A stretch of 32,850 nt of DNA, from IMG/VR virus record IMGVR_UViG_3300031857_000797, positions 1-32,850 of that record; one strand, 5' to 3'. How positions within the stretch are numbered: the stretch's first letter is position 1; each line of letters starts with the position of its first letter. Origin of the DNA: a virus. Positions 10,544 through 27,751 of the stretch are shown here, piece after piece. The notes beneath the pieces are model-generated. The model made no database searches. It had not been told where the DNA came from and was given only the letters and a program-made list of their open reading frames with translations. The translations under genes and the position numbers were made by a program.

Positions 10544-12952
10544 ATGCCAAATAAAAAGATAAACGAATTAACTCCAAGAACTCCTACGCTAACAGACTTG
10601 ATTATCGTTGGTGATCCTTCTTCGGGTTTTTCATTCAAAGCTACTCTCTCGGTTATTTCTAATTTTGTAGGGAATAACATTCAGTTCAGTTCTTTAGGTG
10701 GCATTTCTTTAAGTTCTCCTACGAATGGTCAGGTACTTACTTACAACGGAACTAATTGGGTAAATCAAACTCTATCAGTTCCTGTTCAAAGTGTGTTCGG
10801 TCGCACAGGTGCGGTTGTAGCTGCGGAAGGTGATTACAATTTAGGACAACTCGGAGACGTTACGATTACAACTCCTACAAGTGGACAGGTTCTTAAATAC
10901 AACGGAACTGCTTGGGTAAACGATAGCGACACAGATACAGGAATCGTTAGCCTGAACGGATTAACCGCTACTACTCAGACATTCGCAACAGGTACAAGCG
11001 GAACTGATTTTACAATTTCTTCTACTACTTCTACTCATACGTTCAATTTACCTACTGCTTCTGCTACGAATACAGGTAAGCTTTCTTCTACGGATTGGAG
11101 TACGTTTAACGCAAAGCAGTCTGCGATTACTTTAACGACAACAGGATCAAGCGGAGCATCTACTCTCGTAGGTGCTACTCTTAATATCCCTACTTATACT
11201 CTTACAGGTTTAGGCGGTGTTAGCGGTTCGGGAACTACCAACTACGTTTCAAAGTGGACAGGTTCTACTGCATTGGGGAACTCATTAATTCAAGATGATG
11301 GAACAAATGTTGCAGTAACAAGCACTAAAGCCACCATTGGACCAGCAACAACATATAACACATATAATGGGACTCAGTTGCAGATTTATGATGCAAATGC
11401 AACAAAGGCTACCAGAATCATTATGACCAATAATGGTGTAGGTCCAACAGGGATATATGGTGCTGGTATTTCTTTTAGTACTAATTTATTGTCTTTATTT
11501 AATGATTTTAATGGTCCTACAAATTTTACTACTAATGGAACGGAGTTAATGAGATTAACTCAAACTGGAAATGTTTTAATTGGTAGCACAGTTGATGGAG
11601 GTTTCAAACTTTCAGTCACAGGCACTTTCCGTTCTACCTTAGATGCCAACATAAACGGATTGACAGTAGGTAAAGGAGGGGGAAATGTTGCGAGCAATAC
11701 TGCTGTTGGATTAAATTCTTTAAGAGACAATGTAACAGGTTCTGGTAATACTGCGATTGGTAATAATGCTTTAGTATTAAATACTAATTCACTAAGCACC
11801 GCTGTCGGAGGGAATGCACTTGCATCATTAACAGGTTCAGGTCAATACTCTACTGCTGTAGGATATAATGCATTAACAACCAGCACTTCAGGTGGAGAGA
11901 ATAGTGCTTTTGGAATGGAGGCTTTAAGATTATCTACTACAGGTGCAAATAATACCGGAATAGGAGCAAGAGCAGGTAATGATATTACAACAGGAAGTGG
12001 GAATACATTATTAGGTAGAAATGCTGGTAGAGGAATTACTACAGGTCAATACAACACAATTATAGGTGCTGATGTAACAGGTCTCTCTTCTTCCCTCTCC
12101 AATACAATCATATTAGCAGATGGACAAGGGAATCAGAGGTTGTATATAAACAACAATGGTAACGCTGCTATCGGTACATCAACAATAATTAGCAAAACAG
12201 GTAGATGGTTACAGATTACTGCTACATCAAATGTTGAATCTTCATTGGTATTAAATAGAACAGGTGGAGTTTCAGATGCAAGATGGGATTTATATATACC
12301 TGCAAGTTCAAATTCTTTGCGTTTATATAATTCAAATGCCGGTGATATTGCAACATTTACAAATAGTGGGCGATTACTTTTGGGAACTACGACCGAATCG
12401 ACGTTTTTGCTTGATGTCAACGGTACTGCGAGACTAAATGGAGTTCAATTTAATACTAATGCAAATATTAGGATTATTGAATACAATCACGCGGCTGGTT
12501 TTATGATAAATAACACCGCAGGACCTTTGTATGTTAATGGAACAATGACTGTTAATAGAACAGGTGATATACAAATAAATAATAATTTTGCAGCATTAAG
12601 ATTTATTTCTATTTCAGGTTCATATAAAATCAATACAAATGATGGATATGGTAATTTGTATGGACTTAATATAGGAGCAGATGGAACTCGTGTAATTCAA
12701 ATTTTCAATGGAGGTAATGTAGGTTTTCAAAAAGGAATTGACTATAATAGTACAAATGAATCAAGTGCATTAGTACAAATTAATTCTACTACACAAGGTT
12801 TCCTACCTCCGAGAATGACAGGAGCACAAGCGGAAGCAATCGCTACTCCTGCGGCAGGTCTTTTGGTATATGCTAACAACGGAAACGGCACAACAATCAC
12901 CTCAACAGGATGGTGGGGATATAACGGAACAGGATGGGTTAAATTAAACTAA
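10544..12952 (+). CDS. Tail fibre with YadA-like repeats
   Basis: The 802-aa protein is a long fibre. The N-terminal part has two copies of a motif of the form PTxGQVLxYNGTxWVN (about residues 60-75 and 108-124) that likely joins it to the virion. Residues about 382-520 contain repeated NTAIGxNAL-type units like those of YadA-family trimeric adhesin heads, suggesting a trimeric beta-roll shaft. The end (QGFLPPRMTGAQAEAIATP to GWWGYNGTGWVKLN) is a conserved-looking terminal module. Roughly 11290-12780 is much more A/T-rich than both flanks, so the middle was probably exchanged by recombination. It is the likely host receptor-binding protein. Confidence 0.85.
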   Translation: MPNKKINELTPRTPTLTDLIIVGDPSSGFSFKATLSVISNFVGNNIQFSSLGGISLSSPTNGQVLTYNGTNWVNQTLSVPVQSVFGRTGAVVAAEGDYNLGQLGDVTITTPTSGQVLKYNGTAWVNDSDTDTGIVSLNGLTATTQTFATGTSGTDFTISSTTSTHTFNLPTASATNTGKLSSTDWSTFNAKQSAITLTTTGSSGASTLVGATLNIPTYTLTGLGGVSGSGTTNYVSKWTGSTALGNSLIQDDGTNVAVTSTKATIGPATTYNTYNGTQLQIYDANATKATRIIMTNNGVGPTGIYGAGISFSTNLLSLFNDFNGPTNFTTNGTELMRLTQTGNVLIGSTVDGGFKLSVTGTFRSTLDANINGLTVGKGGGNVASNTAVGLNSLRDNVTGSGNTAIGNNALVLNTNSLSTAVGGNALASLTGSGQYSTAVGYNALTTSTSGGENSAFGMEALRLSTTGANNTGIGARAGNDITTGSGNTLLGRNAGRGITTGQYNTIIGADVTGLSSSLSNTIILADGQGNQRLYINNNGNAAIGTSTIISKTGRWLQITATSNVESSLVLNRTGGVSDARWDLYIPASSNSLRLYNSNAGDIATFTNSGRLLLGTTTESTFLLDVNGTARLNGVQFNTNANIRIIEYNHAAGFMINNTAGPLYVNGTMTVNRTGDIQINNNFAALRFISISGSYKINTNDGYGNLYGLNIGADGTRVIQIFNGGNVGFQKGIDYNSTNESSALVQINSTTQGFLPPRMTGAQAEAIATPAAGLLVYANNGNGTTITSTGWWGYNGTGWVKLN

Positions 12953-18134: not shown

Positions 18135-18667
18135 AGCGTATAGATTAAACTTACTCCGTTTACTTTGCAAGCCTTGAAGTAATCTCCTACTGCGGTTTGT
18201 TTTGCATATGGAACGTGATAGTTTTTCGCTATGTATGGAGTACAAGCATCTCTGTCTATTCGTTGGTCAAGGCTTAACCTATCGTAGATGTCAGGATGAA
18301 ATAGAGTTACGTCTCCGTTATTCAGATAGCTTACATAAGACTTATTAGTCTCTCTCATCCATTGCTCAGGACTTGTAGGATATCCTATGTCGGTTATTTG
18401 TAGGCTCGGATTAACGAGAGGTTGATTTAGGTATCTATCGCTTTGCGAGTTATTGTTAGTAAACTTACTAATCCAATTGAGTAAAGTGCGAGGATCAAGC
18501 GAGTAGTAATCTCCGTAGTCTCCGCAGATACCATTCTCGAAGCACTCTATTACTTGCTTCATTGTAAGTTCTGGATAGCGAGTTCTGATTTTACGAATAA
18601 CTAAATCCTCCGTTTCTTCGCTTACTTGCTTGAATGTTCTTAGATAGTCAAAGGCTGCGTTACTCAT
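18131..18667 (-). CDS. Replication-region protein of unknown function
   Basis: The 178-aa protein begins MSNAAFDYLRTFKQVSEETED and has CFENGICGDYGDYYSLDPRT followed by LLNWISKFT at about residues 42-70. I know this pattern from replication-module proteins near DnaD/DnaT-like genes, but not with a proven role. It overlaps both neighbours by four bases, in line with joint expression with the initiation-like protein upstream. A helicase-loader role is only a guess. Confidence 0.55.
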   Translation of the reverse strand: MSNAAFDYLRTFKQVSEETEDLVIRKIRTRYPELTMKQVIECFENGICGDYGDYYSLDPRTLLNWISKFTNNNSQSDRYLNQPLVNPSLQITDIGYPTSPEQWMRETNKSYVSYLNNGDVTLFHPDIYDRLSLDQRIDRDACTPYIAKNYHVPYAKQTAVGDYFKACKVNGVSLIYTL

Positions 18668-19284
18668 ATCTCAGTAAATTTTCGGTTCTGAATTTCGTTT
18701 AGTTTCTCTTTGATTGATTCGCTTCGTACTTTGGATTCAGGTTTGATTCGGTTAAGCCAAGTGCTTACAGATGCTCTCCAGGACTTCATTTTATTCCTGC
18801 CTATCATCCATCCGTTAGACTCGTAGTAGTTTATGAATTTCTCTGCTTCGATTTTACACTTTTGAGCATCGCTTAACTTCTCCTTCATCTCGTTATAGAC
18901 ATCGGTATAACTCGGTGCATTAAAGGTTTGAGATACTTTCTTTACTTCGATAGGTAGGTTATACTTCTCAAGAATCGAAATCACTTTAGCGTGAATCGGA
19001 CTCGTAGGATTTAACTTACCTCCGTATTGGAAGTCTATAAATCCTTTGCAGAGAATCTTTCCATCGGATAGCTTCTCGAACTGCTCGCCATCATCGACTA
19101 AGAGTAGATCATCTTCATCGACTTGCTCTCCGATATAAACAGAAGCAAGAGTGTAATTCGGATGCCATAGACCTGCGATATCGCACTTATCTCTAACGTA
19201 CTTTACAAAGCATTTCATCTTAGGGGATAGAGACATAAACCAAGCCTTATCCCATATCTCGGTATCAGTAAATCGTTTAGCCAT
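18664..19284 (-). CDS. Replication initiation-like protein
   Basis: The start at 19284 (MAKRFTDTEIWDKAWFMSLS) is preferred, giving 206 aa. An ATG at 19293 and a TTG at 19308 are alternatives. The N-terminal 100 residues (KMKCFVKYVRDKCDIAGLWHPN) resemble the winged-helix opening of phage replication initiators. The C-terminal part (KFINYYESNGWMIGRNKMKSWRASVSTWL) resembles the DnaD-like C-terminal motif YYxxNGW...W, which binds DNA and helicase in other systems. It lies next to a DnaA domain IV protein, so together they may start phage replication with host machinery. Confidence 0.68.
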   Translation of the reverse strand: MAKRFTDTEIWDKAWFMSLSPKMKCFVKYVRDKCDIAGLWHPNYTLASVYIGEQVDEDDLLLVDDGEQFEKLSDGKILCKGFIDFQYGGKLNPTSPIHAKVISILEKYNLPIEVKKVSQTFNAPSYTDVYNEMKEKLSDAQKCKIEAEKFINYYESNGWMIGRNKMKSWRASVSTWLNRIKPESKVRSESIKEKLNEIQNRKFTEI

Positions 19285-19516
19285 TTTTTTCATTTTGGTA
19301 TTGTTCAAAGGTAGAAAAACTATTCGTAACTATGTCTTGGTGAGCTTTTTTATATCCATCTTCCCAAGCCTGTCTTAATTCTTTATTGAGCATTGATTTA
19401 GCTTCATAGATAAAATCTACTTGCCATTCTTTAGCGGTTCGTGAATCCATTTCTTTTTTGCTCACCATTGAATTAAGATAGTTAAATCTTTCTGCTAACC
19501 ATTCTACTGATTTCAT
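19277..19516 (-). CDS. Hypothetical helical protein
   Basis: The 79-aa protein begins MKSVEWLAERFNYLNSMVSK and contains KELRQAWEDGYKKAHQDI. Short proteins with this helical opening and a central Ala/Glu/Gly-rich segment ending in a polar tail are common in phages of Bacteroidota, with no known function. Its start overlaps the stop of the DnaA-like gene by four bases and its end overlaps the next start. Confidence 0.6.
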   Translation of the reverse strand: MKSVEWLAERFNYLNSMVSKKEMDSRTAKEWQVDFIYEAKSMLNKELRQAWEDGYKKAHQDIVTNSFSTFEQYQNEKNG

Positions 19517-19911
19517 ACGTTTGATTTAGGTAGTACGATAAAGTTCTTATAAGGCACTCGTTGTATCTTAATGTGAGGTGGATATTGTTTAGATACTTCG
19601 AGAAGATTGTTATAGTAACTCATAAAGACTATATCATTATTCTTTATGTAGTTCTTTATTTTAGTGTAATGATAGCTAATTACGGAGTGGTCGTTATATC
19701 CGATTATCCTTGCTATCTGAGTTAAAGTTACAGGGTAGTTATGATAGATGTAATGTCCGAGAGCCATTCTCATAGTTGAGAGGCTTACTGGTCCGATTAC
19801 TTTTCTTTTCTTACCTCCTGATGTTACGAATAAATCTTTGCGAGAAATTCCATAGGTATCGCAGTATTTATCTACGAGTTCGATTAGTTGTTTAGTTTGT
19901 TCTTGATTCAT
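19513..19911 (-). CDS. DnaA domain IV-like DNA-binding protein
   Basis: The 132-aa protein carries a DnaA C-terminal (domain IV) helix-turn-helix at about residues 42-90. LSTMRMALGHYIYHNYPVTL is followed by TQIARIIGYNDHSVISYHY, where GYNDHSV corresponds to the GxRDHTTV signature that reads DnaA boxes. There is no AAA+ domain, so the protein can bind but not remodel an origin. It could direct host DnaA or the phage initiator to the phage origin, or compete with DnaA for host boxes. It overlaps both neighbours by four bases. Confidence 0.78.
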   Translation of the reverse strand: MNQEQTKQLIELVDKYCDTYGISRKDLFVTSGGKKRKVIGPVSLSTMRMALGHYIYHNYPVTLTQIARIIGYNDHSVISYHYTKIKNYIKNNDIVFMSYYNNLLEVSKQYPPHIKIQRVPYKNFIVLPKSNV

Positions 19912-22637: not shown

Positions 22638-22676
22638 TTGGTTTAGTTTTTGTGGCTTTCGCCGTTTTTGATATAT

Positions 22677-22709
22677 CAAAGATAAGGTCGACTTGTACAC
22701 AATTCCAAA
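22677..22709 (-). promoter_or_regulatory. Host-type promoter for the leftward early operon
   Basis: On the minus strand TATCTTTG (22677-22684) matches the Bacteroidota -7 consensus TAnnTTTG exactly. A TTTG (22706-22709) lies 21 bases upstream, in the range described for the -33 element. Transcription would start near 22670 and run into the gene at 22637. A host-sigma-dependent early promoter at this place fits the layout. Confidence 0.65.
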
Positions 22710-22810
22710 TTTTTAGGCAACTATTTTTTAAGAAAGTTGCCGAAATCAGCGTATTTTACTGAAAATCAAGCATTTAGGTTTCAAAGATTTTTTGAAAATA
22801 GTATTTTGAT

Positions 22811-22825
22811 ACCTATTTAATAGGT
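22811..22825. promoter_or_regulatory. Perfect palindrome ACCTATT-T-AATAGGT (operator candidate)
   Basis: Seven base pairs are mirrored around a central T. It contains CCTATTTA, the same sequence as the late element variant, here in a palindrome. Together with the next dyad it forms four ATACC/GGTAT-type half sites within 40 bases. Confidence 0.5.
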
Positions 22826-22831
22826 ATGTAG

Positions 22832-22850
22832 TAGGGTATCTAATACCCTA
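22832..22850. promoter_or_regulatory. Inverted repeat TAGGGTAT-CTA-ATACCCTA (operator candidate)
   Basis: An eight-base inverted repeat with a three-base centre lies 6 bases after the first palindrome. Half sites share the GGTAT core with it. The pair looks like tandem operators for a dimeric regulator of the rightward early genes. No regulator gene was recognised for it. Confidence 0.5.
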
Positions 22851-22915
22851 TAAGCATAATAAGAATAAGAAGTATAATTAAAAGAAGAGGAAGAAGACAA
22901 GGACAAGGTACAAAT

Positions 22916-23437
22916 TTGGAAAGTAACATCGTTTATATTCGATTTGTGAACCGCACAGAAATCATAACGGAACTCTATCTGTCAAAGGACATCAACGAAG
23001 CTATCGGTAAGATGCAGCCCTACGAACTTCAAGGGGATTTATTGCAAGAAGTTTTTCTTGTGCTTTGCGAGATGGATGAGGAGCGTTTACTGAAGATGTA
23101 CAATGATGGCTACCTAAAGTATTTTGTAGTTCGTACTATTGTGAATATGGCTAAGAGCGACCGCAGTAACTTTGCTCGGACATTTAGAAAGGTTTACGAA
23201 GAGGTGGGGGATTTAGGATCAGTAGAGCCTTACGATGAGTCTATAACCGAGAAGCTGAATAAGTCGATGGAGATTCTGCATTGGTACGAAAAGGAAATCT
23301 TCAGGCTATTCTCGGAGACAGGTAATCTCCTACAGGTTTCAAGAGATACGAAGATTCCGTATAGGTCGCTTCTAAAAACCATTAAGAAAGTAAAGACTCT
23401 ACTCAAATACAAAATACGCAACTATGCACACGATTAG
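22916..23437 (+). CDS. Sigma-70-like (ECF-type) RNA polymerase sigma factor
   Basis: The frame starts with TTG at 22916 (173 aa); no ATG lies upstream before a stop. Residues about 38-90 (YELQGDLLQEVFLVLCEMDE, YFVVRTIVNMAKSDRSNFAR) resemble sigma region 2. Residues 118-165 (EILHWYEKEIFRLFSETGNL, then DTKIPYRSLLKTIKKVK) give the region 4 helix-turn-helix that contacts the -35 side. Small phage sigma-like proteins of this build direct host RNA polymerase to phage genes. Here it is the natural candidate to read the TCTATTTA elements of the late block. The gene opens the rightward operon after the operator-like repeats. Confidence 0.72.
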   Translation: MESNIVYIRFVNRTEIITELYLSKDINEAIGKMQPYELQGDLLQEVFLVLCEMDEERLLKMYNDGYLKYFVVRTIVNMAKSDRSNFARTFRKVYEEVGDLGSVEPYDESITEKLNKSMEILHWYEKEIFRLFSETGNLLQVSRDTKIPYRSLLKTIKKVKTLLKYKIRNYAHD

Positions 23438-23902: not shown

Positions 23903-24199
23903 ATGACAAAGGCAGAGGTAGATTTTCTTATTCAGCATAAGTTAAACTTCGATTCAGTTAAACTCGGATTCACTCGGAACATTCCATTCGAGGTACTCGG
24001 AGAGTATGAGCAACTCTATCGGAAGTATTTAGATGCTCAGTTCATTCTTACTTATTGGTGCGGTGCGTGTGTCTTTGATATGCTTGAAAGACTGATTAGA
24101 TACTGCGAAAATCAAGAGGAGTACATTAACGCTGTCAATCCACAAACGTATGAACCTACAAAAGTGGAAGCTAAAAAGAGAGGGAGACCTAAGAAATGA
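23903..24199 (+). CDS. Small protein with AT-hook-like end
   Basis: The 98-aa protein (MTKAEVDFLIQHKLNFDSVK) is helical with LIRYCENQEEYINAV near the end, and stops with KKRGRPKK, which has the RGRP core of an AT-hook. That motif binds the minor groove of A/T-rich DNA. The same RPKK-type end is common in phage DNA-packaging small subunits too. Its stop overlaps the glycosyltransferase start (ATGA). Confidence 0.6.
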   Translation: MTKAEVDFLIQHKLNFDSVKLGFTRNIPFEVLGEYEQLYRKYLDAQFILTYWCGACVFDMLERLIRYCENQEEYINAVNPQTYEPTKVEAKKRGRPKK

Positions 24200-25203
24200 G
24201 AATACTCGTAATAACTCAGCAGAACTCAGGAGTAGGCTACCACAGGCTTATGCTTCCTATTCACTTTCTCCCGAAGGCTTATGCTTTGATAACTGACGTT
24301 CTAAGCGAAGAAACTCTAAAGGAAGGTTGGGATATTGTTTACATTAATCGATTTATTCCTGCTATTCATATCTCAGTCTTAGAAGATTTCAAAGAGCGGT
24401 ATGGATTTAAGTTAGTAATCGATATAGATGACTATTGGCATTTAGACCAATGGCACATACTAAAAGATGTTTACCCGACTCAGGCGGTTATCGACCATAT
24501 CAAAATAGCTGACCTGGTTACTACTACTACTGAAAGACTATGGAATGAGATAAGACTAATCAATTCAAACGTAGCAATAGTTCCAAACGCTTTACCATAC
24601 GGAGAGGATCAGTTTACCGATGTTGTAACAAATAGCGACAAAGTTCGTTTCATATATGCAGGTTCAATTACGCACGAGAAAGACCTTCAGCTACTCCAGA
24701 ACCCATTGAAGAAAGTAGCATCGGATTCCGTACTTAAATCGAAGGTTCACTTCCGTTTGTGTGGGTATGATAACCCTAATAGATACTCGGAAGCGGTATG
24801 GCATAAGATGATTCATTACTTTACTTGTGGGTTGAAGCTCGGAGATATTGAAAGGAATAAGAAAGTTACCGAGTATATGAACTTCTACAATAACGCAGAT
24901 GCTACGATAGTTCCTCTGGTTCATTCTAAGTTCAACTCGATGAAGAGTAACCTAAAAATCTTAGAAGCTGCTTGTAAGAAGATTCCTGTTATCGTATCTA
25001 ACGTACCTCCATACGATGATGCACCTCACGTTATCAAGATAGACAAACAAACCGAGTGGTATCCTGCGATTAAAAAAATCACCGAGGATGCTATTTATAG
25101 GAAAGAACTCGGAGAAGCTAATTACGAATGGTGTAACGAGAACTTCAATCTGCACAAAGTAAACATCCTTAGAAAACAATTATTTGAATCTATATGCCAA
25201 TAA
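24196..25203 (+). CDS. GT4-like glycosyltransferase
   Basis: The 335-aa protein has a Rossmann-type start with GVGYHRLMLP and a middle IDIDDYWHL segment. The C-terminal half is typical of family GT4: FIYAGSITHEKDLQLL, then ADATIVPLVHSKFNSMKSNL followed by KILEAACKKIPVIVSNVPPY, where the Lys/Glu pair and the following glycine-like turn bind the sugar nucleotide. It likely transfers a sugar from a nucleotide donor. Target unknown: DNA base, virion protein or host glycan. It begins a cassette with an acyltransferase and a second glycosyltransferase. Confidence 0.8.
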   Translation: MRILVITQQNSGVGYHRLMLPIHFLPKAYALITDVLSEETLKEGWDIVYINRFIPAIHISVLEDFKERYGFKLVIDIDDYWHLDQWHILKDVYPTQAVIDHIKIADLVTTTTERLWNEIRLINSNVAIVPNALPYGEDQFTDVVTNSDKVRFIYAGSITHEKDLQLLQNPLKKVASDSVLKSKVHFRLCGYDNPNRYSEAVWHKMIHYFTCGLKLGDIERNKKVTEYMNFYNNADATIVPLVHSKFNSMKSNLKILEAACKKIPVIVSNVPPYDDAPHVIKIDKQTEWYPAIKKITEDAIYRKELGEANYEWCNENFNLHKVNILRKQLFESICQ

Positions 25204-25394: not shown

Positions 25395-25425
25395 AGAAAG
25401 AAACTATAGAGGTCAAGGCAGATGA
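25309..25425 (+). CDS. 38-aa highly basic protein
   Basis: A short gene begins MAKLTTQKVTFGKRKGGKAQ and ends with ERNYRGQGR. It overlaps the end of the previous gene in another frame by 86 bases, and its stop overlaps the next start through ATGA, which supports it being a real, coupled gene. The protein is almost entirely Lys/Arg/Asn/Gly. I recall short basic proteins of this style in phages of Bacteroidota. It may bind nucleic acid or ribosomal RNA, but there is no evidence for a specific role. Confidence 0.72.
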   Translation: MAKLTTQKVTFGKRKGGKAQKSRNKNNRKERNYRGQGR

Positions 25426-25910
25426 TACACGAATCAGCTTATATTCATCCTACTGCGGTAATCTACGATGGAGTAGTAATGGAAGAAGATGTTTACATTG
25501 GGCCGCTTTGTATTATTGGTGGGCCTGCTGAGTGGAAAGGTAAAGAGGATAACACAGGTAAAGTAATCATCAAGAAAGGAGCAAGGCTCACAGGATTAGT
25601 AACTGTAGATTCAGGAACGCATCAGAATACAACCATCGGAGAAAATTGTTACTTAATGAAACACTCTCACGTAGGACACGATGCGATAATTCAGGATGGA
25701 GTTACGATAAGCTGCGGTGCTAAAATCGGAGGGCATTCGATTATTCATCAAAATACTAACATAGGACTTAACGCAGTTATCCATCAGAAGGTAGTAGTAC
25801 CCGAAGGATGTATGATAGGTGCTTCCGCTTTCGTAGGTAAGAAATCAGAGTTACAACCATTTCATAAATACGCAGGAGTACCTGTAAAAGATTTAGGATG
25901 GAATCGATGA
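25422..25910 (+). CDS. LpxA-like left-handed beta-helix acyltransferase
   Basis: The 162-aa protein is built of hexapeptide repeats (IHPTAVIYDGVVMEEDVYIG, GATISCG-type coils) that form a left-handed beta helix. It contains LMKHSHVGHD, in which His83 and His86 match the two histidines of the LpxA active site motif HIAHD. It lacks the C-terminal helical domain of LpxA (262 aa in E. coli). It probably transfers an acyl group from CoA or acyl carrier protein to a sugar nucleotide. Together with the two flanking glycosyltransferases it suggests assembly of an acylated sugar. Confidence 0.8.
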   Translation: MIHESAYIHPTAVIYDGVVMEEDVYIGPLCIIGGPAEWKGKEDNTGKVIIKKGARLTGLVTVDSGTHQNTTIGENCYLMKHSHVGHDAIIQDGVTISCGAKIGGHSIIHQNTNIGLNAVIHQKVVVPEGCMIGASAFVGKKSELQPFHKYAGVPVKDLGWNR

Positions 25911-26545
25911 ATATAAACGTCATACTCTTAGACTACGATAGACACGACTTTACTCAGAGGGTAAAGGATGTGAACTTCAATAACGCAGGTTATCCTTTCG
26001 ACTTTACGATAGTCGATATGAAGGGAATCTCTAAAGCATTGAACCACGGAATCTTTCAATCGAGAACATACGATGCGGTAGTTACGATGGCTAACGATAT
26101 TTTGATGCCTAATAGTTGGCTCGAAAGAATGGTTCAAGCAATGATAACTATTCCTAATTCTGGAATGATAGGGATTCACACGGTCGAAAGTATCTCAGAG
26201 CCTACCACTATCAACGGACTCCAAGTACACATACAAGAAGCAGCCTTCGGGAATGTTCTTATACCGATGAAAGCCATCGATAAAATAGGCTACTTTAATG
26301 AAGCCTACGATCCATACGGAATGCAGGATAGAGATTACTCCTATCGGTTACAAATGACAGGACATCTGAACTACTATCTAAGCGGACTCCGAGCAGAACA
26401 TATCGGACACGATGTAGGACAAGATACTCCTTACCGAAAGATGAAGGATGAAGGACTAAGCAAGTGCGATTACCTATGGGCGAGAGAGACAGGTAAATAC
26501 CAAGAAGAAAATAACTACACTATCTATCAAACAGAATGGCTATGA
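25907..26545 (+). CDS. GT2-like glycosyltransferase
   Basis: The start is set at 25907, where ATGA overlaps the upstream stop, giving 212 aa (MNINVILLDYDRHDFTQRVK). The chain has the GT-A features DAVVTMANDILMPNSWLERM (metal and nucleotide site), IGYFNEAYDPYGMQDRDYSY (acceptor loop with acidic base) and a C-terminal TGHLNYYLSGLRAEHIGHD. Small GT2-like enzymes of this length occur in phages and in surface-polysaccharide loci. It is coupled on both sides by four-base overlaps to the acyltransferase and to the ParB-like gene. Confidence 0.8.
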   Translation: MNINVILLDYDRHDFTQRVKDVNFNNAGYPFDFTIVDMKGISKALNHGIFQSRTYDAVVTMANDILMPNSWLERMVQAMITIPNSGMIGIHTVESISEPTTINGLQVHIQEAAFGNVLIPMKAIDKIGYFNEAYDPYGMQDRDYSYRLQMTGHLNYYLSGLRAEHIGHDVGQDTPYRKMKDEGLSKCDYLWARETGKYQEENNYTIYQTEWL

Positions 26546-27075: not shown

Positions 27076-27668
27076 GATTAGAGAAAGCATCACATAAGGC
27101 AATAGTTTATGCTTGTATGAACTTTCATTATTCTAAAGCTATACCATCTACAAGAGCTAAACCATTAGGATATTCAGTATTTAATGATAAAAATGAATGG
27201 TGTGGAGTTATCATTTTTAGTGGAGGTGCATCAGCTAATATGGGTACACCTTATGGATTAAAATTTGGTCAATATGCAGAATTAGTTAGAATGGCATTGA
27301 ATGGTAAGCAAGAAAGCACTTCAAAAGCTATGAGTATAGCAATAAGGCTTTTAAGAAAATCCTGTCCATCAGTAAAATTACTGATAAGCTATGCTGATAA
27401 AGGTCAAGATCATTATGGTACAATTTATCAAGCAACAAATTGGTATTTTGTAGGTGAAAGCGAAAGCTCAGGAATTGATTATTATTTTAATGGTAAATGG
27501 AGGCACGATAGAACATTGAATGATTATGGTAGAGATTTTCTTATCAAATTGCCAAAGAGAAAAAGAAGCGGAAAATATAAATACATTTATCCATTAGATA
27601 AGAATTTGCTATCTATGTGTAATAAGTTAGCTAAGCCTTATCCAAAGAAACAAGCGGATATAGCATAA
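27072..27668 (+). CDS. Mom-like DNA modification protein
   Basis: The 198-aa protein has GNAT-type Mom features: CGVIIFSGGASANMG, a YAELVRMAL helix with Glu70 and Arg73, LLISYADKGQDHYGTIYQ (Ser106, Asp109), and ATNWYFVGESES. Mom of phage Mu converts adenine into a methylcarbamoyl form that resists restriction. I infer a similar base modification here. The gene is much more A/T-rich in codon use (gga, aaa, tta, ttt) than its neighbours, a sign of recent import. Its stop TAA lies inside the D arm of the tRNA that follows, so gene and tRNA overlap by 15 bases. Confidence 0.83.
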   Translation: MRLEKASHKAIVYACMNFHYSKAIPSTRAKPLGYSVFNDKNEWCGVIIFSGGASANMGTPYGLKFGQYAELVRMALNGKQESTSKAMSIAIRLLRKSCPSVKLLISYADKGQDHYGTIYQATNWYFVGESESSGIDYYFNGKWRHDRTLNDYGRDFLIKLPKRKRSGKYKYIYPLDKNLLSMCNKLAKPYPKKQADIA

Positions 27669-27725
27669 TGGTAATGCACTGACTTTCCAAGTCAGGGATG
27701 GCGGTTCGATTCCGACCTATCCGCT
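27654..27725 (+). tRNA. tRNA-Gly (anticodon TCC), overlapping the mom-like gene
   Basis: Acceptor GCGGATA (27654-27660) pairs with TATCCGC (27718-27724), and the discriminator is T27725. The D stem GCAT/ATGC encloses AATGGTA. The anticodon stem CTGAC/GTCAG encloses TTTCCAA, with anticodon TCC at 27686-27688. The T loop TTCGATT sits on stem GGCGG / CCG-A-CC with a bulged A at 27715. G1-C72, C2-G71, G3-C70, U73 and C35-C36 match glycine identity. CCA is not encoded (TCAA follows). The bulge is atypical, so function is likely but not certain. Confidence 0.8.
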
Positions 27726-27751
27726 CAATAATTTAGAAGGAATAAAGAGAA

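Follow-up and report, generated by a model that had tools for sequence, protein, structure and literature searches.

A predicted replication origin in the divergent control region of an uncultured phage: a box array whose presence tracks the initiator's N-terminal domain

Two adjacent dyads in the divergent control region of this phage very probably form part of its replication origin: by analogy with known origins, the N-terminal domain of the phage initiator would bind a set of short boxes, an adjoining tract would melt, and the C-terminal domain of the initiator would load the helicase. As read from the comparison of related sequences, the dyads are real and their symmetry is incidental, the two being neighbouring parts of one small box array. 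The window (the whole stretch of DNA analysed, 32,850 nucleotides) is a complete circular phage genome, as the 128 bases at its start recur at its end. The phage is uncultured and its host probably belongs to the Bacteroidota, judging by the promoter type described below and by a single match, a Bacteroidetes MAG contig, among the genome contigs scanned with the initiator N-domain.

The box array and its surroundings

The control region lies between a leftward operon that starts at about 22.6 kb and encodes small proteins, Erf, HNH, a DnaA-domain-like protein and an initiator-like protein, and a rightward operon that begins with a sigma-like gene (22946-23437, plus strand). The GTG at 22946, aligned with an ATG in L020, is more likely to be the start of this gene than the TTG at 22916. 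The sigma-like protein has weak fold matches to sigma factors; family searches gave no family match, the nearest-isolate search gave no match among phage records, and the genome contigs scanned held no relative. The stretch from the sigma-like gene to the packaging genes contains, as recognised by eye, genes for glycosyltransferase-like and hexapeptide-repeat-like proteins (24196-25203, 25422-25910 and 25898-26545), and a tRNA-Gly (TCC) gene (27654-27726) is placed immediately 5' of the small-terminase-like gene; L050 has a tRNA-Trp after terS. The motif TCTATTTA has five plus-strand copies in the window (3711, 6926, 10520, 13245 and 29865), all no more than about 30 nt before an ATG and at least four of them at late-gene starts, and it also precedes terL in L048 and L050; it is possibly a late promoter or a translation signal.

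Both perfect dyads of the original prediction were found, the first at 22809-22827 (ATACCTATT-T-AATAGGTAT, with arms of 9 bp) and the second at 22832-22850 (TAGGGTAT-CTA-ATACCCTA). They are included in an array of four boxes (22810-22850, plus strand) that we predict to be initiator-binding sites: TACCTA (22810-22815), TAGGTA (22821-22826), TAGGGTA (22832-22838) and TACCCTA (22844-22850). The gaps are exactly 5 nt each, giving a period of 11-12 bp (TACCTA-TTTAA-TAGGTA-TGTAG-TAGGGTA-TCTAA-TACCCTA). Perfect inverted repeats of dyad size are not rare in the window as a whole (6, versus 2-10 in Markov sequences); in the 307-base control region there are 3, versus 0.10 expected. Four boxes at a constant 5-nt spacing are found at a single place in the window and in none of 2000 local and none of 50 whole-window Markov sequences. 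Regularly spaced short repeats, as in an iteron-type origin, are thus present here as four boxes and in relatives as two to five. GC skew gave no sharp origin signal. The strand is able to fold as a hairpin (as DNA, z -3.0); Rfam gave no match in the dyad region, and an RNA-hairpin reading of the dyads was rejected because the first hairpin is broken in relatives with direct repeats.

Directly adjoining the last box is a purine-rich (AAG/AAT), C-poor tract (22851-22909, plus strand), the predicted unwinding element, which would, if transcribed, also be the 5' leader of the sigma-like gene. An easily melted tract is expected next to iterons, and a C-poor, A/G-rich stretch directly follows the last box in the tabulated relatives and in other phages, with a C fraction of 0-0.07 over the 60 nt past the last box in the tabulated loci.

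The remaining elements of the region had been listed as a GGCAACT/AGTTGCC pair, a DnaA-box-like site and a host-type promoter, and each was located (22716-22741, 22693-22702 and, on the minus strand, 22709-22677, respectively). The promoter, proposed to be early, is of the Bacteroidota type and points leftward (TTTG at 22709-22706, TATCTTTG at 22684-22677); TTTG-N21-TATCTTTG has its sole match in the window here, and the leftward consensus is conserved, being found in the upstream regions of 10 of 31 relatives, themselves related to each other, versus 0.22 expected, and never rightward. No rightward host-type promoter was found in the control region, and E. coli-type promoters were not above chance. 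Within the spacer of the leftward promoter lies the DnaA-box-like TTGTACACAA (plus strand); TTATNCACA occupies a like position in relatives and occurs in 9 of the same 31 interrelated regions versus 0.75 expected. The host DnaA or a phage DnaA-domain-like protein is a candidate for binding this box, the phage candidate being a 132-aa protein (19513-19911, minus strand) that resembles DnaA domain IV alone, with matches to Pfam Bac_DnaA_C (E 4e-4, short of the curated cut-off) and NCBIfam DnaA (E 9e-5, covering the C-terminus). Alignment and motif positions place CTGAAAATCAA (22759-22769, plus strand) as a weak copy of a second palindrome, TTGATAATCAA, which is conserved upstream of the array in relatives. 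The GGCAACT dyad is conserved in close relatives only and was discarded as a core element. Nor did the late-element-like CCTATTTA in the palindrome hold up as a late promoter: with one mismatch allowed its frequency is at chance (42 found versus 43.9 expected), and it is missing from the upstream region in L015, L017 and L018. In the leftward leader (22652-22665, minus strand) there is a GGC-GAAA-GCC hairpin of GNRA type, replaced in relatives by GCC-GAAA-GGC, a compensated change.

Conservation of the array and the protein that it tracks

Relatives of the sigma-like gene (L002-L022 and L023-L096) comprise many close kin and are no independent counts; the independent lineages with both the initiator N-domain and the boxes number about ten, not eighty, and for some of their members the evidence is marginal. 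The repeated unit in the relatives is the box TA-SS(S)-TA and not the palindrome. Two (L015) to five (L023) boxes stand at the same spot, the next box is almost always exactly 5 nt away, and CC and GG interchange freely, as in L004 (TACCTA-TTTGA-TACCTA-TTGTA-TAGGGTA-TTCAG-TACCCTA), so that a dyad appears only where neighbouring boxes happen to face each other. Every relative with the initiator N-domain whose contig includes the upstream region keeps the layout of the array, and wherever relatives have the array it directly precedes the sigma-like gene. Conservation of the dyads among relatives, the check attached to the original prediction, therefore divides: the array is conserved in layout, but the symmetry is not, dyad 1 often turning into a direct repeat or disappearing. 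In L022 (5500-6010) and L061 (9570-10000) a GIY-YIG homing endonuclease-like gene, recognised by eye, sits between the array and tract and the sigma-like gene.

This pattern bears on the operator originally proposed, at which a dedicated repressor, either an 83-aa protein or an AP2-like 49-aa protein, would recognise the palindromes. Perfect dyads do adjoin a promoter and the window clade does keep the AP2-like protein, but palindromy is lost among relatives, L101 carries the array and yielded no AP2-like protein, and the 83-aa protein, found in seven near-identical loci only, was dropped as a repressor; we consider such an operator highly improbable. The protein whose presence does track the array had not been named in that prediction. 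It is encoded at 18664-19308 (minus strand; conserved ATG at 19284) and resembles replication initiators and helicase loaders, with the predicted box-binding N-domain at 18955-19284.

On modelling and sequence grounds we predict this protein to be an initiator of the winged-helix/helicase-loader type. Its C-terminal part matches PHROG 15768 (E 2e-16; function not known) and the DnaD-like loader PHROG 8489 (E 9e-4), and its homologues match replication-initiation PHROGs. For the model of the N-terminal part, VIA-align returned mostly winged helices, at middling Z scores (6.5 at most); Foldseek returned no match with E below 1 for the initiator model. In searches of Pfam, NCBIfam and PHROG the N-domain of the window matched no model specific to it, and among phage records it matched only Pan5.

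Presence or absence of the array follows the initiator N-domain, and sigma-like, TerS and TerL proteins turn up both where the array is present and where it is absent. Thus L068-L096 have sigma-like homologues, many also with TerS and TerL homologues, and no array. Their helicase-loader homologues, where found, align solely with the C-terminal part of the 18664-19308 protein, and those inspected have different N-domains (Lin1244_N, DUF1376-like, HTH_36). In sister phages with other N-domains these boxes are absent, and other repeats follow the N-domain in the four genes examined. Boxes paired with a cognate initiator domain, as expected of an iteron-type origin, were therefore seen both in presence and absence and in swaps with other repeats. 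L101, found by DNA pattern, shares only the N-domain with the window (45% identity over 110 residues), and its initiator gene contains long 12-bp arrays of such boxes followed by AAGAAGAAGAAG. These very long arrays (11539-11770, 12-bp period) are mostly TACAGTA and TAGGGTA boxes and are translated as a repeated peptide. The sequence comparison suggests that boxes and DNA-binding domain move together and the loader domain stays. The sigma-like protein was rejected as the binder, since it has homologues in phages without the array.

Boxes inside initiator genes and copies upstream of terL

The search with the N-domain brought in additional phages, either more distant or with contigs of other sizes. 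In most other phages with this domain boxes and tract lie inside the initiator gene, and about ten other lineages show this arrangement with similar boxes. L119, L146, L169, L170, L172, L176-L178 and L181-L183 have GGGTA/TACCC boxes just past the N-domain codons, mostly ending TACCCT and followed by a purine-rich tract that encodes an E/K-rich linker in most; the boxes of L182 are degenerate, and the cyanophage Pan5 has a degenerate version of boxes and tract after its N-domain. The in-gene boxes fall in different reading frames (translated as RV, GY, YP or NTL), and hence it is the DNA, not the peptide, that is conserved. Across 11 initiator genes there are 34 boxes versus about 9.5 in synonymous shuffles; L180, most of whose boxes read TACAGTA, for that reason has no GGGTA excess in the segment tested.

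When 2.9 million viral contigs were scanned blindly for a three-box pattern, 8 stretches matched: 4 in genes with the N-domain, 3 in genes of like layout and 1 beside a terminase gene. One match is the contig of L119 itself, L184 and L189 have the domain by HMM, and L187 holds the C-terminal part of an L189-like gene; L185, L188 and L190 have the like gene layout with a marginal HMM score or none. The array beside the terminase gene, in the 53-kb contig L186 (4067-4095), has three boxes just 3' of a terminase-like gene, and no initiator N-domain was detected in that record. As the scan shows, the specificity of the box signature suffices for recognising unannotated initiators from a DNA pattern and nothing else. 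Literature searches on iterons in Bacteroidetes or Flavobacterium phages yielded, judged by title and abstract, nothing relevant.

An origin inside the initiator gene was thus found in L101, L119, L169, L176 and others and not in the window clade, whose initiator gene has no box within. Because of this, the origin role in the window rests on transfer from the other phages, and the predicted origin sits apart, in the divergent control region, about 3.5 kb from the initiator gene and beside the early promoter and the DnaA-like box. Most likely, as far as sequence can tell, the array is a replication start point that moved out of the initiator gene into this region, and the suggestion that the region is perhaps an origin gains accordingly: a predicted replication origin is the best explanation of the array.

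Some relatives have second arrays with an A/G-rich tract, placed immediately before terL and running opposite to the first (L048 6505-6550, L050 5965-6030, L053 3805-3850, L058 8040-8075); L015 has two such inverted arrays there (10780-10935). Since the tract leads no gene at these copies, it presumably acts as DNA. The same copies speak for a packaging (pac/cos) or terminase-binding site, together with the array just downstream of the terminase-like gene in the unrelated L186. We regard this reading as very unlikely, since the window and most relatives have no copy there, even with a gap between terS and terL (L028, L029, L035, L061), and since the array is lacking in phages whose TerS and TerL are homologous and whose initiator N-domain is a different one; a terminase site was set aside on these grounds.

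More weight, although still little, goes to the array being mainly a transcriptional operator, through which the initiator or another small protein controls the sigma-like gene, the leftward early operon or both, with replication starting elsewhere. Initiators commonly control promoters close by, the array stands between divergent operons and right upstream of the sigma-like gene wherever relatives have it, and the inverted copies also precede another gene, terL. Against this, where other phages have array and tract inside the initiator gene no promoter role is evident, conservation of the tract as DNA extends to places where it leads no gene, and the search for a rightward host-type promoter came up empty; we find this account improbable.

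Proposed mechanism and known origins

In the origin that we propose, the winged-helix-like N-terminal domain of the initiator would bind the four TA-SS(S)-TA boxes whichever way they point, each turn of the helix presenting one box; this would melt the adjacent C-poor purine tract, and the C-terminal domain would then load the host replicative helicase. The comparison shows how the array is built, that it is conserved and linked to the N-domain, and that elsewhere it lies within the initiator gene; from these we infer binding, melting, helicase loading and origin activity.

In phage lambda the origin consists of iterons and an AT-rich tract in the middle of gene O (PMC7466680). The likeness lies in repeats for initiator binding that lead into a readily melting tract, and in the in-gene origin of other members of the window's initiator family. 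The window array differs in its 6-7 bp boxes, 11-12 bp spacing, free orientation and C-poor purine tract, the predicted origin of the window clade lies outside the initiator gene, and family search detected no relation between the N-domain and lambda O. SPP1 gp38 has two binding regions, oriL within gene 38 and oriR between genes (PMC6316719), so that an in-gene location is not essential to an iteron-type origin. Here the likeness is one initiator with origins in its gene and between genes, and the second copy near the late genes of some relatives resembles oriR; the sequences are unrelated as far as tested, and the window clade lacks the in-gene copy. With DnaD-like and O-like phage initiators (PHROGs 15768, 8489, 678 and 2562; Pfam Lin1244_N) the window clade and its sisters share a C-terminal loader-like region, and exchangeable N-domains and in-gene repeats are seen among them; the N-domain of the window is what stands outside the annotated models.

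By analogy, the second, terL-side copy possibly acts like SPP1 oriR. A further extension, which we hold to be rather doubtful, makes the origin a shared control site, where initiator binding would fire replication and also switch transcription of the sigma-like gene; the inverted terL copy in relatives would, as has been put forward for SPP1 oriR, stall forks and so turn theta replication into the making of concatemers for packaging.

The array and its partner domain provide a predicted origin, a box sequence and a cognate binding domain for initiators whose N-domain belongs to no annotated family. Such initiators span uncultured phages, probably of Bacteroidota, and a cyanophage, and their distribution suggests an origin that is able to sit outside its gene and to be duplicated.
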